Below, one piece after another: positions 1,596-36,810 of a stretch of 36,810 bases of DNA. The stretch covers positions 1 through 36,810 of the forward strand of contig JAFZED010000062.1 in the NCBI GenBank assembly GCA_017560825.1, written 5' to 3'. Numbering within the stretch: position 1 is the first letter of the stretch; each line of letters opens with the position of its first letter. This DNA is from Bacteroidales bacterium (lineage in GTDB: Bacteria; Bacteroidota; Bacteroidia; Bacteroidales; UBA932). The position numbers and the translations under genes were made by a program. The notes beneath the pieces are model-generated. The model was given only the letters and a program-made list of their open reading frames with translations, did no database searches and was not told the DNA's origin.

Positions 1596-2204
1596 TTACA
1601 ATCTGTCGATGTAAAGTATGCCGTCCAGGTGGTCTGTCTCGTGCTGGAAGATGACTGCTGTGAAGCCCTGGATCCTTTCGCGGGCTGGCTGGACTGTCAC
1701 TTTCCCCTCTGAGAAGACGGCGTCGTACTCGATCTCGATGTCCTGCCATCTCATCACATCTCCTCTTTTGTCCGGAACGGAGAGGCAGCCCTCGCCTCCG
1801 GGTGCCTTCTCCCCGTGATGAGCAACTATCCTTATATTCCCATATACCTCAAAAGGCTCTCCTTCCTTGTCGAACCGCTGTACTGCGACAACTCTGCGGT
1901 TCAGTCCGACCTGCGGTCCCGCTATGCCGACTCCGTCCTGTGACGGGTGAGTCACCGTGGCTATCATCTGGCTGCATAATGTGACAAAGGCTTCTGAAGA
2001 CAGCGCCTCGCTGGACAAGTCTTCAGACTGGGCACGCAGGATGGCCAGGTCAGCAGGCCTGTCAATGGTCAGCACACGCATAATGCTGTCAGCCCCATTT
2101 ATCAGGGACAGTTCCTTTTCCGTAAAAGTTCCTTCTCCACTATTGCAGGAGGCAAATGCAAACAGTGCCATCATAAATCCGCACAAAACTGAAACCTTTA
2201 TCAT
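1596..2204 (-). CDS. Peptide deformylase-like lipoprotein
   Basis: 202 residues. All three deformylase motifs are intact: GVGIAGPQVG (91-100), EGCLSVP (138-144, metal ligand Cys140) and HETDH (188-192, two His ligands and catalytic Glu189). Family members remove the N-formyl group from nascent proteins in the cytoplasm. Here, however, the N-terminus is a lipoprotein signal (hydrophobic residues 4-18, FASC with Cys20) and about 70 residues precede the catalytic core, so the enzyme is predicted to be exported and lipidated. Its ATG overlaps the ispF stop as ATGA, implying translational coupling. The deformylase assignment is strong; the location and substrate are inference. Confidence 0.9.
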   Translation of the reverse strand: MIKVSVLCGFMMALFAFASCNSGEGTFTEKELSLINGADSIMRVLTIDRPADLAILRAQSEDLSSEALSSEAFVTLCSQMIATVTHPSQDGVGIAGPQVGLNRRVVAVQRFDKEGEPFEVYGNIRIVAHHGEKAPGGEGCLSVPDKRGDVMRWQDIEIEYDAVFSEGKVTVQPARERIQGFTAVIFQHETDHLDGILYIDRL

Positions 2205-2686
2205 ATCGCTGATTTCTTTAACAGCACCACCGCATACACCTCACATCCCTCACCGCGGCCCACAAAGCCGAGTTTCTCCGTCGTGGTGGCCTTGACAGAC
2301 ACCTGGCCGACTGAAACCCCCATCACCTGGCTGAGGCACTCGCGCATCTTAATGATATACGGTGCAAGCTTCGGCCTCTGCATAGCTATGGTGATGTCGG
2401 CGTTGCAGACATCCCAACCCTCTGCGCGTACAAGTTCCATCACGCGTGCCAGAAGGATCTTGCTGTCAATGCCTTTGAATTCCGAAGATGTGTCGGGGAA
2501 ATGCTTTCCGATGTCTCCAAGAGCCAGTGCCCCGAGCAGGGCGTCACAAAGCGCGTGAATGGCGACGTCGCCGTCGGAGTGGGCGATGCATCCTATCGGG
2601 CTTTCCACAAGCACGCCGCCCAGCCACAGGGGCAGTCCCTCAGCCAGTGCGTGCACGTCATATCCGTTTCCTATTCTTATGTCCAT
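2201..2686 (-). CDS. ispF: 2-C-methyl-D-erythritol 2,4-cyclodiphosphate synthase
   Basis: 161 residues, normal for IspF. It converts CDP-methylerythritol 2-phosphate to the cyclic diphosphate in the MEP isoprenoid pathway. Visible motifs are GYDVH near the N-terminus (Asp and His metal ligands), HSDGDVAIHALCDALLGA, GDIGKHFPDT and the C-terminal KATTTEKLGFVGRGEG. The ATG at 2686 places GNGYDVH at the usual distance from the start; an in-frame extension to 2725 would add untypical residues. It overlaps the downstream deformylase by four bases. Confidence 0.95.
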   Translation of the reverse strand: MDIRIGNGYDVHALAEGLPLWLGGVLVESPIGCIAHSDGDVAIHALCDALLGALALGDIGKHFPDTSSEFKGIDSKILLARVMELVRAEGWDVCNADITIAMQRPKLAPYIIKMRECLSQVMGVSVGQVSVKATTTEKLGFVGRGEGCEVYAVVLLKKSAI

Positions 2687-2725
2687 ATTCCAAAGTATTT
2701 CCGTACAAAGTAAATAAAAAATCAC

Positions 2726-9299: not shown

Positions 9300-10682
9300 A
9301 TGCCAGCTGTGAAGACAAAGACTGTGTGGTTCTGCAAGTCCTGCGGAAATGAGAGCCCCAAATGGATGGGCCGTTGCCCGGCCTGTGGAGAATGGAACAC
9401 GATGGTCGAGGAGACCGTCGCAACCGGCAAGAAGGCTTCTGTAGCCGACAGAGTGCCGGGAGCAGGGCAGAAACCACTGCCGTTGTCTGAAATAGATTCG
9501 TCGGTAGAGAACCGCATATCATTGAACAACGACGAGGTCGACCGCATACTTGGCGGCGGTCTTGTCGAGGGTTCTCTTGTGCTCATAGGCGGAGAACCTG
9601 GTATAGGAAAATCTACATTGTCACTTCAGATCCCGCTTAACTGTCCGAACCTGAAGACCCTTTATGTGACAGGAGAGGAGAGTGCAAGACAGGTCAAGCT
9701 GCGTGCTTCTCGCATTGGCGGAGATGATGCCAACTGCTTGATCTACAGCGAGACACTGATGGAAAACATCATAGCTGAAGCAAAGGCTATAATGCCCGAC
9801 CTGATGGTGGTAGACTCAGTACAGACAATGTTTTCACAGAATGTGGAGTCATCTCCCGGTTCGGTGACCCAGATCAAGGAGACGGCCGCAATGCTTCTCC
9901 GTTTTGCAAAAGAGACCGGAGTGCCTGTCATCCTGATAGGTCACATCACGAAGGAAGGAAGCATCGCAGGTCCGAAGATATTGGAACATATAGTGGATGT
10001 CGTACTCCAGTTCGAGGGTGACAACAGGGGAGCTTACCGCCTCCTGAGAAGCATAAAGAACCGCTTCGGATCAACATCCGAGCTTGCTGTCTTTGAGATG
10101 ACAGGAAAAGGCTTAAGAGAAGTAAGCAACCCGTCCGAAATGCTCATCCCTATGCACGAGGAAGGCTTGAGCGGAGTGGCTGTGAGCGCTATGCTCGACG
10201 GTACAAGGCCGTTCCTGATCGAAGTGCAGTCGCTCGTGAGCACGGCTGCCTACGGCACGCCTCAGCGCAGCGCGACAGGCTTCGACGTCCGCCGCCTGAA
10301 TATGCTCCTGGCAGTACTCGAAAAGAGAGCCGGCTTCAAGCTCAGCATAAAGGACGTCTTTCTGAATATGGCAGGAGGACTCAAGGTCAGCGATCCTGCC
10401 TGCGACCTTGCTGTAATAGCTGCAGTACTGTCATCCAACTTTGATTTTGCCATCCCTTCCGATGTCTGCTTTGCCGGTGAAATCGGCCTGAGCGGAGAGA
10501 TCAGACCTGTAGCTCAGACAGACAGACGTATAATAGAGGCAGCCCGTCTTGGCTTCAAGAGGGTGTTTGTTTCCAGCTTCACAGCCCTTGACGGACTGGA
10601 AGAGCAGGGAGTGAGGGGAATAGAGGTAGTAAAAGTCGCTGATGTGCCGGCTCTCTGCCGCGCACTTTTCAAGGCAGACTAA
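9300..10682 (+). CDS. radA: DNA repair protein RadA (Sms)
   Basis: 460 residues, full length. An N-terminal C4 zinc finger (Cys12, 15, 26, 29) is followed by a RecA-like ATPase with Walker A GGEPGIGKST (about 97-106), the RadA-specific KNRFG motif (about 253-257) and a C-terminal Lon-like domain (SATGFDVRRLNMLLAVLEKRAG onward). RadA is a branch-migration helicase acting with RecA in recombinational repair. The ATG at 9300 follows its own promoter. Its stop shares bases with the stop of the convergent dacB-like gene. Confidence 0.97.
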   Translation: MPAVKTKTVWFCKSCGNESPKWMGRCPACGEWNTMVEETVATGKKASVADRVPGAGQKPLPLSEIDSSVENRISLNNDEVDRILGGGLVEGSLVLIGGEPGIGKSTLSLQIPLNCPNLKTLYVTGEESARQVKLRASRIGGDDANCLIYSETLMENIIAEAKAIMPDLMVVDSVQTMFSQNVESSPGSVTQIKETAAMLLRFAKETGVPVILIGHITKEGSIAGPKILEHIVDVVLQFEGDNRGAYRLLRSIKNRFGSTSELAVFEMTGKGLREVSNPSEMLIPMHEEGLSGVAVSAMLDGTRPFLIEVQSLVSTAAYGTPQRSATGFDVRRLNMLLAVLEKRAGFKLSIKDVFLNMAGGLKVSDPACDLAVIAAVLSSNFDFAIPSDVCFAGEIGLSGEIRPVAQTDRRIIEAARLGFKRVFVSSFTALDGLEEQGVRGIEVVKVADVPALCRALFKAD

Positions 10683-12169
10683 TTTGCTTCGGCTAGAGTG
10701 GCCATAATCTTGTCCAGCAGAGGCCGCACCTTCCAAGTCGGTGAGGTGCAGTTGTTTACCATAATGGAGAACACTATTGTCTCCTCCTTGGCGCCTGAGC
10801 TCGGGAGGATGTAGCCGCTGTAGCATCTCACTCCGTTCATAGAGCCGCTCTTGACCTTTATCCTGGCCTTCATAGCAGCTGGACTGGACTTCATATTGTA
10901 CTCAAGCGTGCCTTTCGATCCCGGCGAAGGAAGAGTGGAGACATAATCCTCATACGCCGGTGAGGACATCATTCCCAACAGAAACCTGCAGAAGAAATCC
11001 GTAGACATATAGTTCTGTCGCGACAATCCGCTTCCGTCCGCTATCGCTGCTCCGCGCAAAGTGCTGACTCCCAGATTCTTCAGTACCTTGTCCATAGCGA
11101 CATAAGAAGAATCGTAGCACGCGCTCTGTGTAAGAGTCTTGCCCAAAGTACGGAATAGCGTCTCAGCATAGAGGTTGTTGCTGGCGTGATTGGTCTCGAA
11201 GACTATCCTCTTCAATGAAGCCGAGGCTGTAGAGTCAATCATATGGATCTGTCCTTTGTCCTCAAAGTCCTGACAAAGCCTGAAGTCTGAAACTCCACCT
11301 TCGCAGACGATTCCTTTCTTTACGAGATACTCCCTGAAATAGTGGGCGCAGGTGTACTCCGGGTACTTGTTGCTGCAGTCCAGTCTCTTTCCGGCCCTGT
11401 CCACCCCGAATGTGCCCCTGATTTCAGCAACCGGTGCAAGCTCGCTCGTGTACAGATAAAGCTGATCACCCGTACCGGCCTCCCCGGTGCTGCAGTCCTG
11501 CCTCACCTCAAGCCAAGGACAGACAGGATAATAAGGGGATATATTGACGTCGTCGCCGACTTTTTCACCTGCCGCAACAGAAAACGAAAGCGTGTTCTCA
11601 TAGAACATAAGTCCTGTGGCTCCGGAGCCGTAGTATGTTCCTATGTCGCTCCATTGCCAGGTCGGATGCTCCATCATACCGTCGAAATGCCTTCCGTCTC
11701 CGACGATTTTTCCGGTGATATGTCTGATCCCGGCATCACGGACTATCTTTTCCCACTGACCGAACATCTCCTCGGCAGGAGTCGCGATCGAGTCCTTCGA
11801 GAAGGTGGTGGGGTCTCCTCCGCCGATAATATACAGGTCTCCGTCGAGGATACCGTCAGTGATTTCTCCGCTATGTCCTATCTTTGTATAGAATTGATAG
11901 TCAGCTCCTAACGTGTGCATCGCTGCTCCTGTGCTGATCAGCTTCATATTGGACGCCGGCACAAGCATATTGTCCGAGTCCACATCGACGAGGACCTTTC
12001 CATCCGCTCTCTTTGCGCATATGCTTACCACGCCTTGATTCAGCGCAGGATCCTCCGCGATGGCGTTGACCTTCGCCTGAAGGGCGATGGCAGCCGAATC
12101 GGCTGCAACCTGTGCGTGTGCGTTGCCGAAGGCAGCCCACGCGCAAACCAGCATAAATATACGTTTCAT
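10679..12169 (-). CDS. dacB: D-alanyl-D-alanine carboxypeptidase/endopeptidase (PBP4, S13 family)
   Basis: 496 residues. A signal peptide (MKRIFMLVCAWAAFGNAHA) precedes a DacB-type fold: active site SNMK (Ser73, Lys76) in LVPASNMKLISTGA, the SGLSRQN region carrying the second motif, and KSGSMNG as the third (KTG-like). Long inserted domains between the first two motifs are typical of class C PBP4. It trims or opens peptidoglycan cross-links in the periplasm. The ATG at 12169 gives a normal signal peptide; a TTG at 12187 would add six residues. The promoter is divergent from galE. Confidence 0.93.
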   Translation of the reverse strand: MKRIFMLVCAWAAFGNAHAQVAADSAAIALQAKVNAIAEDPALNQGVVSICAKRADGKVLVDVDSDNMLVPASNMKLISTGAAMHTLGADYQFYTKIGHSGEITDGILDGDLYIIGGGDPTTFSKDSIATPAEEMFGQWEKIVRDAGIRHITGKIVGDGRHFDGMMEHPTWQWSDIGTYYGSGATGLMFYENTLSFSVAAGEKVGDDVNISPYYPVCPWLEVRQDCSTGEAGTGDQLYLYTSELAPVAEIRGTFGVDRAGKRLDCSNKYPEYTCAHYFREYLVKKGIVCEGGVSDFRLCQDFEDKGQIHMIDSTASASLKRIVFETNHASNNLYAETLFRTLGKTLTQSACYDSSYVAMDKVLKNLGVSTLRGAAIADGSGLSRQNYMSTDFFCRFLLGMMSSPAYEDYVSTLPSPGSKGTLEYNMKSSPAAMKARIKVKSGSMNGVRCYSGYILPSSGAKEETIVFSIMVNNCTSPTWKVRPLLDKIMATLAEAN

Positions 12170-12191
12170 CTTTTTAACTCTCTTCAAAGAG

Positions 12192-32712: not shown

Positions 32713-33933
32713 TTACTCAGCGTATAAGCTTATGATGTTGAGGATGACCTTGCTGGCCTTCTGCATACTTTCGAGAGGGACGTATTCCATCTTGCCGTGG
32801 AAGTTGTGTCCGCCTGCGAAGATGTTAGGGCAAGGGAGTCCCATAAATGAGAGGTTGGCTCCGTCTGTGCCACCACGGATCGGCTGGATCTTTGGCACGA
32901 TTCCTTCCATTTCCATAGCCTTCTTTGCCTTCTCGACGATGTGCATATGCGGCTCGACCTCTTTGCGCATATTATAATACTGGTGCTTCATCTCGAGCAG
33001 GGCTGTGCCTTCGCCATACTTGCAGTTGATGAAGTCGACGCATTTCTGCATATATGCCTTCTTCTGCTCGTAAAGATCCATATCGTGGTCGCGGATGATA
33101 TATGAGAAGGTCGCTGTCTCCACTTCGCCCTTGAAACTGATGAGGTGGTAGAAGCCCTCGTAGCCCGATGTGTACTCAGGACGCTGCTCCACAGGAAGGA
33201 GAGCGTTGAGCTCCATACCGATGAGGGTTGCATTCTTCATCTTGCCCTTGGCAGTGCCTGGGTGCACGTTGCGTCCCTGGATACGGATCGTGGCTCCTGC
33301 TGCATTGAAGTTCTCATACTCGAGTTCGCCGACCTGGCCACCATCGAGGGTGTAGGCGTACTTTGCGCCGAATTTCTCCACATCGAACTTCACTACTCCT
33401 CGTCCGATCTCCTCGTCCGGAGTGAAACCGATCTTGATGTCTCCGTGCTTGAACTCAGGGTGCTCCACTATGTACTGGACTGCGTCCATAATCTCAGCTA
33501 TTCCGGCCTTGTCATCTGCACCCAGAAGTGTAGTTCCGTCTGTAGTGATGAGAGTCTGGCCCTTGTACTGGGTCATTTCAGGGAACTCGCTTGGCTTGAG
33601 GCTCAGTCCGGGAACTCCCTTCAAAGGGATCTCTCCGCCATCATAGTTCTCGATGATCTGAGGCTTGATGTCGGCTCCGGAAGCGTCCGGCGCGGTGTCA
33701 GCGTGAGCGATGAAACCTACAGCCGGCACATCTTTTCCGCAGTTTGACGGAATGCTTGCCATTACATATCCATATTCGTCAAGTGTGGCCTCCACTCCCA
33801 TTGCCTGAAGCTCGTCGCGGAGCATTTTAAGCAGGTTGAGCTCCTTTGCCGCGCTTGGCTGCGAAGTTGATTCGGGGTCAGACTGTGTGTCCACAGCCAC
33901 ATATCTTAAAAATCTGTCTAAAATCTTTTCCAT
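32713..33933 (-). CDS. pepT: Peptidase T (tripeptide aminopeptidase)
   Basis: 406 residues, standard for the M20B family. Motifs: FIAHADTAPD (zinc His77 and Asp79), LLGADDKAG (bridging Asp), TPDEEIGRG (catalytic and zinc Glu), GRNVHPG, RGGTDGA and GGHNFHGKMEYVP (final His ligand). It removes N-terminal residues from tripeptides in the cytoplasm. With the OPT transporter gene upstream in the same minus-strand run, it suggests peptide uptake and use. It lies eight bases after the preceding lipoprotein gene. Confidence 0.97.
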   Translation of the reverse strand: MEKILDRFLRYVAVDTQSDPESTSQPSAAKELNLLKMLRDELQAMGVEATLDEYGYVMASIPSNCGKDVPAVGFIAHADTAPDASGADIKPQIIENYDGGEIPLKGVPGLSLKPSEFPEMTQYKGQTLITTDGTTLLGADDKAGIAEIMDAVQYIVEHPEFKHGDIKIGFTPDEEIGRGVVKFDVEKFGAKYAYTLDGGQVGELEYENFNAAGATIRIQGRNVHPGTAKGKMKNATLIGMELNALLPVEQRPEYTSGYEGFYHLISFKGEVETATFSYIIRDHDMDLYEQKKAYMQKCVDFINCKYGEGTALLEMKHQYYNMRKEVEPHMHIVEKAKKAMEMEGIVPKIQPIRGGTDGANLSFMGLPCPNIFAGGHNFHGKMEYVPLESMQKASKVILNIISLYAE

Positions 33934-35494: not shown

Positions 35495-36810
35495 TTATGC
35501 CTTCTTTGTCTTGAGCGCAGCGTATATCATATATATGATGATGGCTGCGTAAGGGATGATGGCGATCGGTTCTGTCCAAGGCGACGGCTCCATAAATGCA
35601 TCTACCTTCGCAAATCTGAGGATTGCGCTGACAACACCCATAAGGGCACCACCCGCGATGAATCCTGAAGCAATGAGTGTACCTTTCTCGGTGCGGGCCT
35701 CGTTGAGGGCCTTGTCCTTGCTGCGGCTGCCTACAAACCAGGAGATCGCTCCACCCACAAGCATAGGGGTGTTGAGGTCGATTGGAATGAACATACCGAG
35801 GGCGAAAGGAAGTGCAGGAACCTTGAAGAAGTTCAGCACGAGTGCCAGAGCAGCGCCTATTCCATAAAGGAGCCAAGGTGCTCCGCCGCCGTTCATCATA
35901 GGCTCGATCACTGCTGCCATTGCATTTGCCTGAGGTGCTACAAGGGCATCCTCGCCGGTAAATCCATATGTCTTGTTGAGGACGAGCATAACTCCGCCTA
36001 CAGTTGCGGCTGCCACAAGCGTGCCGAGGAACTTCCATCCTTCCTGCTTCTTAGGTGTAGAGCCGATCCAGTAGCCGATCTTGAGGTCAGTGATGAATGC
36101 ACCTGCAACAGAGAGTGCTGTACATACTACGCCTCCGATGATGAGTGCTGCTGTCATTCCGGCAGTTCCGTCAAGACCCACTGCAACCATAATGAGGGAA
36201 GCGAGGATGAGGGTCATAAGTGTCATACCGCTGACAGGGTTCGATCCCACGATGGCGATTGCATTTGCTGCCACGGTAGTGAACAGGAATGCGATGATAC
36301 CTACAACCAGCAGACCTACGACAGCGTGCCATACATTGTGTACCACTCCGAAGAGGAAGAACAGGAACACTGCCACGAGAGCTACGGCGATTCCGATCAC
36401 GATGATCTTCATCGAGAGGTCCTTCTGGGTTCTGATCACTTCAGCTTCAGAGTCGCTCTTCTTTCTCTTGAACTCGCTTGCAGCAAGTCCGAGTGCAGAC
36501 TTGATCACACCGAAGGACTTCACAATACCGATGATACCTGCAGTTGCAATGCCTCCGATACCGATGTGCCTTGCATATTCCTTGAATATCTGGTCCGCAG
36601 ACATCTCTCCGATAGTCTGGGTAATGCCTGTGTTCATAAGGTCAACAACCTGTCCGCCCCAGATGAGGTTCATCACAGGAATAATCACCAGCCAAACGAG
36701 GAACGAGCCGCAGCAGATGATGAACGCATATTTAAGACCTACGATATAGCCGAGTCCGAGCACAGCTGCTCCTGTGTTCACCTTCAGGAGAACCTTGGCT
36801 TTTTCTGCTA
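35495..36810 (-). CDS. OPT family oligopeptide transporter, 5' truncated by window edge
   Basis: At least 438 residues; the frame is open to the last base of the window (AEKAKVLLKVNTGAAVLGLGYIVG), so the N-terminal part is missing and the GTG at 36781 is internal. Many membrane helices are visible. Landmarks of the bacterial OPT group (TIGR00733) are GYIVGLKYAFIICCGSFL, ATAGIIGIVKSFGVI, GSNPVSGMTLMTLI and FKVPALPFALGMFIPIDLNTP. OPT proteins import oligopeptides or related conjugates by proton symport. It heads the visible run OPT, ZIP transporter, lipoprotein, pepT, TPR regulator. Confidence 0.93.
   Translation of the reverse strand, partial: AEKAKVLLKVNTGAAVLGLGYIVGLKYAFIICCGSFLVWLVIIPVMNLIWGGQVVDLMNTGITQTIGEMSADQIFKEYARHIGIGGIATAGIIGIVKSFGVIKSALGLAASEFKRKKSDSEAEVIRTQKDLSMKIIVIGIAVALVAVFLFFLFGVVHNVWHAVVGLLVVGIIAFLFTTVAANAIAIVGSNPVSGMTLMTLILASLIMVAVGLDGTAGMTAALIIGGVVCTALSVAGAFITDLKIGYWIGSTPKKQEGWKFLGTLVAAATVGGVMLVLNKTYGFTGEDALVAPQANAMAAVIEPMMNGGGAPWLLYGIGAALALVLNFFKVPALPFALGMFIPIDLNTPMLVGGAISWFVGSRSKDKALNEARTEKGTLIASGFIAGGALMGVVSAILRFAKVDAFMEPSPWTEPIAIIPYAAIIIYMIYAALKTKKA

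Follow-up and report, generated by a model that had tools for sequence, protein, structure and literature searches.

Introduction

Deformylation is known as a cytosolic reaction linked to the ribosome. In Escherichia coli, peptide deformylase (PDF) binds the ribosome through a C-terminal helix, which is described in a part of PMC8712518 as contacting ribosomal protein L22. Passages of PMC5454389 state that the signal recognition particle (SRP) keeps PDF off SRP-type signal sequences and that N-out proteins are more likely to retain formyl-Met, the role of the retained formyl groups being given there as not known; because of this shielding and retention, formylated ends can reach the periplasm. 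An exported, secreted, extracellular or periplasmic PDF was not found among the papers listed by searches of the open-licence literature, judged by title and abstract start. Besides, the words 'lipoprotein' and 'Bacteroid' are absent from the main text of a 2025 paper surveying PDFs across 5,042 genomes (PMC12690207), and its passages on signals, the periplasm or secretion do not describe exported PDFs. Here we analyse contig JAFZED010000062.1 of a Bacteroidales genome assembly (GCA_017560825.1), a stretch of 36,810 nucleotides hereafter called the window, in which a gene at positions 1596..2204 of the minus strand is predicted to encode a PDF exported as a lipoprotein, and we compare it with its relatives in Bacteroidota.

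Results

The window gene has an ATG start and 202 codons plus stop, and its 202-residue product is well supported, by sequence and predicted structure, as a class I PDF with an export signal and the PDF fold. It is a clear member of Pfam PF01327 (E 1e-30, 106.8 bits, cut-off 22.8) and scores 94 bits against the NCBIfam equivalog TIGR00079, under the cut-off of 103.95. The N-terminus reads MIKVSVLCGFMMALFAFASC. As the original prediction had proposed, a lipoprotein signal peptide with its lipidation cysteine occupies residues 1-20 (2145..2204, minus strand, as for all features of this gene), with a hydrophobic stretch followed by FAS|C20 according to our own lipobox and hydropathy rules, by which all signals in this work were scored. 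A similar rule applied across the window gave 10 matches among 69 open reading frames (ORFs) of at least 120 residues; of these matches, two lie antisense to a gene. In the AlphaFold2 model, residues 3-18 form a helix (pLDDT about 65) and the fold is close to that of peptide-bound PDFs by VIA-align, which matches model residues 39-40 to residues 1-2 of canonical PDF. Together with an alignment (A1) of the window protein and 64 of the 80 named-genome loci described below, which has 37 invariant columns, the model delimits a linker of residues 21-38 (2091..2144), containing a short helix at 29-37 and preceding the canonical PDF start, and a PDF domain of residues 39-202 (1596..2090, including the stop codon).

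All of the active-site residues considered are present, namely Gln98 at the end of motif I (GVGIAGPQ, residues 91-98, 1911..1934), the metal ligand Cys140 within the EGCLS of motif II (EGCLSV, residues 138-143, 1776..1793), and the metal ligands His188 and His192 with the catalytic Glu189 in motif III (QHETDHLDG, residues 187-195, 1620..1646). The earlier claim that the catalytic motifs are intact was thus right for Cys140, His188, Glu189 and His192, but motif I departs from the published GxGxAAxQ by a Gly for the second Ala; this mismatch does not exclude membership in the family, since exact PDF motifs are regarded in section 6 of PMC12690207 as unreliable markers of activity. The exact GVGIAGPQ form is found in 65 of 121 exported-type PDFs, and the catalytic Gln and Glu are each conserved in 121/121. 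An Arg following motif II, a residue with a role in peptide binding, is kept in 81/81 relatives. The window PDF is likely to be catalytically active.

The set of 121 proteins comprises the window PDF, 80 relatives from a scan of named genomes and 40 found by a whole-length profile search; near-duplicates were left in, while a duplicate of the window (L113) and a canonical-like protein with no signal (L125) were removed. The 80 named-genome relatives are 49-87% identical to the window protein in the best segment and belong, by their titles, to uncultured or metagenome-derived Bacteroidales or Bacteroidia; as they are the best 80 of a longer list and were found through short patterns (one being IFQHETDH), their motif conservation is partly ascertained. 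A lipobox was recognized in 91 of the 121 proteins, the window included, and another hydrophobic N-terminal segment (a secretory signal, a transmembrane anchor or an off-pattern lipobox) in a further 29. No canonical PDF carries an N-terminal signal or anchor (0/47, after one of 48, L127, was dropped), and in 41 of these 47 the domain is preceded by fewer than 18 residues.

A phylogeny inferred solely from the PDF domain included 70 exported rows, 38 canonical rows and four phage or plasmid outgroup rows, after 11 of 49 canonical loci, which the motif pattern missed, and one of five outgroup loci (L191) were dropped. A branch with 100/98 support separated all 70 exported rows from the canonical and outgroup rows. 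The exported forms share a signature, QRxDKxxxPxE, which in the window protein reads QRFDKEGEPFE (residues 109-119, 1848..1880), with Q109, R110, K113, P117 and E119 present in 67-70 of the 70 exported rows versus 0-3 of the 38 canonical ones; T182 and F186 are likewise found in the exported forms, and the canonical rows are without them. Moreover, the window PDF is without the ribosome-binding C-terminal helix of housekeeping PDFs, since the tail past its last motif consists of RL. Leaving out two C-terminal fusions (L029 and L150), the median tail is 6 residues with a net charge of 0 in 119 exported forms and 32 residues with a charge of +9 in 47 canonical ones, and a tail of at least 20 residues with a charge of at least +2 occurs in 39/47 canonical versus 7/119 exported proteins. 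Taken together, these sequence comparisons place the predicted exported PDFs as a distinct, conserved branch of a known enzyme family in Bacteroidota.

The anchoring of these proteins bears on where they may work. The domain tree implies three or more switches between a lipid and a transmembrane anchor, with the off-consensus lipoboxes of L145, L158, L163, L166 and L171 counted by hand as lipid. In each of the 12 transmembrane forms, net charge is higher on the N side of the membrane segment than on the C side: six have an N side of +1 or more and a C side of 0 or less, five (L035, L075, L076, L078 and L144) also have +1 on the C side, and L043 has 0 versus -2. This bias makes an N-in, C-out orientation likely, though it is not uniform. 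Lipoproteins of Bacteroides reach the surface via an acidic export signal after the Cys, CS(D/E)2, as described in a part of PMC6222051. The window protein, with NSGEG after Cys20 (CNSGEG), does not match this signal, and at least two acidic residues at +2 to +6 were observed in just 3/91 lipobox forms, the window protein being among the 88 with fewer. Since acidic signals are rare and lipid and transmembrane anchors have replaced each other, the periplasm would be a likelier workplace than the cell surface, being the only compartment that the transmembrane-anchored relatives share with an outer-membrane lipoprotein; on sequence, it is the likelier and best-supported location of the exported PDF.

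The source genome (2.06 Mb in 82 contigs, 77% complete) has two PF01327 matches, the window gene and a PDF lacking a signal on another contig (C72:47798-48271, E 4.1e-45), so that the second, signal-less deformylase proposed as a check on the original prediction is indeed present. This canonical protein starts MILPIYLYGSEKLR and is 29% identical to the window PDF over 153 aligned positions; their catalytic motifs are in register, whereas the canonical protein has no signal, ends in the usual basic C-terminal tail, here of 30 residues, and lies on the opposite side of the tree. An exported-type match was examined in this respect in 71 further genomes, of which 69 likewise have at least two PF01327 matches and the remaining two (G560 and G567), both drafts, have one each. 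The source genome carries fmt, which makes formylation likely, and two lspA-type matches, which indicate that lipoproteins can be made.

Sequence divergence shows the window PDF to be under purifying selection. Compared with its 87% identical relative L003, most differences fall on the third codon position (15, 18 and 64 at the first, second and third positions), and the ratio of non-synonymous to synonymous substitution rates (dN/dS) is 0.126 overall, 0.10 for residues 42-202 and 0.20 for residues 1-40. Seven other close pairs were compared, of which L071/L073 gave 0.42 overall with few changes.

The searches covered Bacteroidota, phages, plasmids and viral contigs, along with the one pattern scan of named genomes. 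With A1 as the profile, and the source genome itself counted in every tally, 12 of 392 genomes sampled from the phylum matched at 1e-38 or better; G330, whose protein (L125) is without a signal, followed at 3.5e-34, and the remainder scored from 3.0e-29. At 1e-32, the family yielded matches in 102 of its 149 genomes, the order in 65 of the 392 sampled (down to 3.5e-34) and the class in 15 of 396, G330 included; these are profile counts and may hold a few signal-less cases like G330. N-termini were viewed for 37 of the 64 other order genomes (29 by rule and eight by eye), 12 of the 15 class genomes and eight of the 101 other family genomes. The record titles of many of the best 80 named-genome relatives name rumen and hindgut samples.

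Some relatives carry additional domains. A single 830-residue ORF (L285:923-3412, plus strand) joins a signal peptide, an exported PDF and an M1 aminopeptidase domain; a pathway that deformylates and then trims would be expected to look like this single case. PDF is fused to DUF1684 in L177 and, by eye, in L280, and to DUF3667 with hydrophobic segments in L181. L174 and L175 each carry a pair of PDF domains, with motifs broken in the first and intact in the second, and L174 has two PF01327 stretches. In L029:3001-4212 an exported PDF shares its reading frame with a flavin reductase domain, and in L150 with a deaminase-like sequence recognized by eye; both fusions possibly reflect a lost stop codon.

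Directly upstream of the window gene lies ispF (2201..2692, minus strand), whose stop codon overlaps the PDF start (ATGA). Among the 80 related loci, ispF neighbours the exported PDF in 16, a radA-like gene stands directly upstream in 13, and an aminotransferase-like gene is a neighbour in 10, the last two names being our own assignments. In the window itself, a gene that we take to be radA-like, followed by one presumably DacB-like, lies at 9300-12187, with the PDF gene instead downstream of ispF. About 30 kb away from the PDF gene lie a PepT-like peptidase (32713-33933) and an incomplete OPT-like oligopeptide transporter (35495-36781), both recognized by eye. At the other end, beyond two tRNA genes, positions 65-874 encode a presumably RhuM-like protein whose counterparts in four related loci (L004, L011, L012 and L015) match it at 95-98% identity, while the exported PDFs of these loci are only about 60% identical to that of the window, a sign of recent transfer beside tRNA-Met and tRNA-Gln. 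An origin of the PDF gene from phages or plasmids was rejected, the best tblastn identity being 37.5% on plasmids (40 of 788 records) and 44.3% in phages (15 of 139); a scan of viral contigs reached 39% among the best 80 of 365 relatives.

Discussion

With its export signal and complete active site, and with a signal-less PDF encoded elsewhere in the genome, the window enzyme probably acts on formylated chains outside the cytoplasm. In the mechanism that we tentatively propose, the Sec pathway would export the protein and Cys20 would receive a lipid that keeps it in the outer (or inner) membrane; there the enzyme would face the periplasm and remove formyl groups from N-formyl-Met peptides and from protein ends that arrive in this compartment. 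Sources of these substrates could be membrane proteins of N-out topology, signal peptides after their release, or the debris of other bacteria. The freed amino terminus would then be open to periplasmic dipeptidyl- and aminopeptidases, so that blocked peptides would become food and would not pile up. That the protein is an active, anchored periplasmic PDF unblocking formylated ends and peptides for exopeptidases is a reading to which we give nearly, though not quite, as much credence as doubt. The broader proposition, that Bacteroidota possess an extracytoplasmic step devoted to N-terminal processing, in which an anchored periplasmic deformylase, specialised through its QRxDKxxxPxE segment, unblocks formylated ends and peptides missed by the ribosome-bound enzyme and so serves either the maturation of exported proteins or entry to peptide catabolism, seems to us evenly balanced.

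Several observations weigh against this proposal. One of the 121 proteins (L117) has no signal at all, and seven exported forms have the long basic tail otherwise typical of canonical PDFs. In one family (f6, L118-L124), motif II reads EGDLSI, with Asp for the metal ligand Cys in 7/7 members, which carry secretory rather than lipoprotein signals. The M1 fusion was found in one of 40 genomes, with no second case among the matches listed. Across the 80 loci, no neighbour is conserved beyond sub-clades and none of the frequent ones was recognized as belonging to peptide catabolism. S46 peptidases, present in 143/149 family genomes, are nearly universal and so do not discriminate. The exported PDF itself seems dispensable, given that 47/149 family genomes have no match at the threshold. 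Finally, dN/dS against L003 rises to 0.58 over residues 1-20 alone, as may be expected if a signal peptide conserves its overall character and not its individual letters, and the pair L025/L030 reaches 0.92 over the first 40 codons, with few changes.

Among the alternatives, a role in periplasmic maturation, by which the enzyme would deformylate the cell's own N-out inner-membrane and exported proteins as a second round of processing for chains that SRP shields from the ribosome-bound PDF, is unlikely but has points in its favor, namely the SRP block on deformylation of bound signal sequences and the greater retention of fMet by N-out proteins (passages of PMC5454389), together with membrane anchoring by lipid or transmembrane helix. 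The apparent dispensability of the gene, which has no match in 47/149 family genomes or in 380/392 of the phylum sample (1e-38), and the lack of a constant partner gene in the 80 loci speak against it. The nearly invariant QRxDKxxxPxE, the T182 and F186 absent from canonical rows and the 29% identity to the canonical PDF of the same genome suggest a changed substrate, and the enzyme might be an amidase for another small N-acyl compound outside the cytoplasm (e.g., a formylated amino acid or non-peptide compound); we find this rather improbable, as neither the catalytic residues nor the Arg after motif II have been lost and the fold is close to peptide-bound PDFs.

The sequence thus supports the part of the original prediction that places an active form outside the cytoplasm, but not the suggestion that it acts at the surface on host chemoattractants or competitors' peptides, because the acidic export signal is not matched. 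A surface or vesicle enzyme destroying formyl-peptide chemoattractants would suit the rumen and hindgut titles of the relatives and the proposal, in a part of PMC6563851, of a deformylase as a route for formyl-peptide breakdown; it appears highly improbable given the scarcity of acidic residues after the Cys in 88/91 lipobox forms and the transmembrane-anchored relatives, which should not be at the surface. Translation from Met42, leaving the signal unused and giving a second cytosolic PDF, would place the start near that of canonical PDF at a residue that is Met in 69/81 close relatives, but it is scarcely credible because Met is missing in the other 12 (11 have another residue there and one escaped the pattern), dN/dS against L003 is 0.20 over the first 40 codons, and a lipobox, other signal or anchor is kept in 120/121. 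A decoy that binds actinonin-type inhibitors in the periplasm and shields the cytosolic enzyme is hardly tenable, since it would not need the strict conservation of the catalytic Glu (121/121), and resistance enzymes are reported to show an Arg-to-Tyr change, whereas the Arg after motif II, presumably the same residue, is kept in 81/81.

If the proposed periplasmic deformylase is confirmed, formyl-Met ends would also be processed in the periplasm, which would bear on the fate of formyl groups that membrane and exported proteins retain, on the feeding of gut bacteria on blocked peptides and on the formyl-peptide signal that they release. In addition, PDF-directed antibiotics may meet a periplasmic PDF first.

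Compared with the class I type b PDF of Acinetobacter baumannii (PDB 6jf3-6jf8 and 6jes), the window PDF adds a 38-residue N-terminal signal and linker and would be further set apart by its QRxDKxxxPxE. The accessory PDFs of Vibrio and integrons, in the portion of PMC12690207 that treats them, resemble it in being a second PDF beside the housekeeping one, but they are presented as resistance enzymes that frequently reside on mobile elements. A likeness in proposed role is offered by the acylpeptidyl-oligopeptidase of Porphyromonas gingivalis, which, according to passages of PMC8048996, is proposed to open N-blocked peptides for periplasmic dipeptidyl-peptidases; that enzyme, however, is an S09 serine peptidase that cuts off the blocked di- or tripeptide, whereas the exported PDF would remove the block itself.
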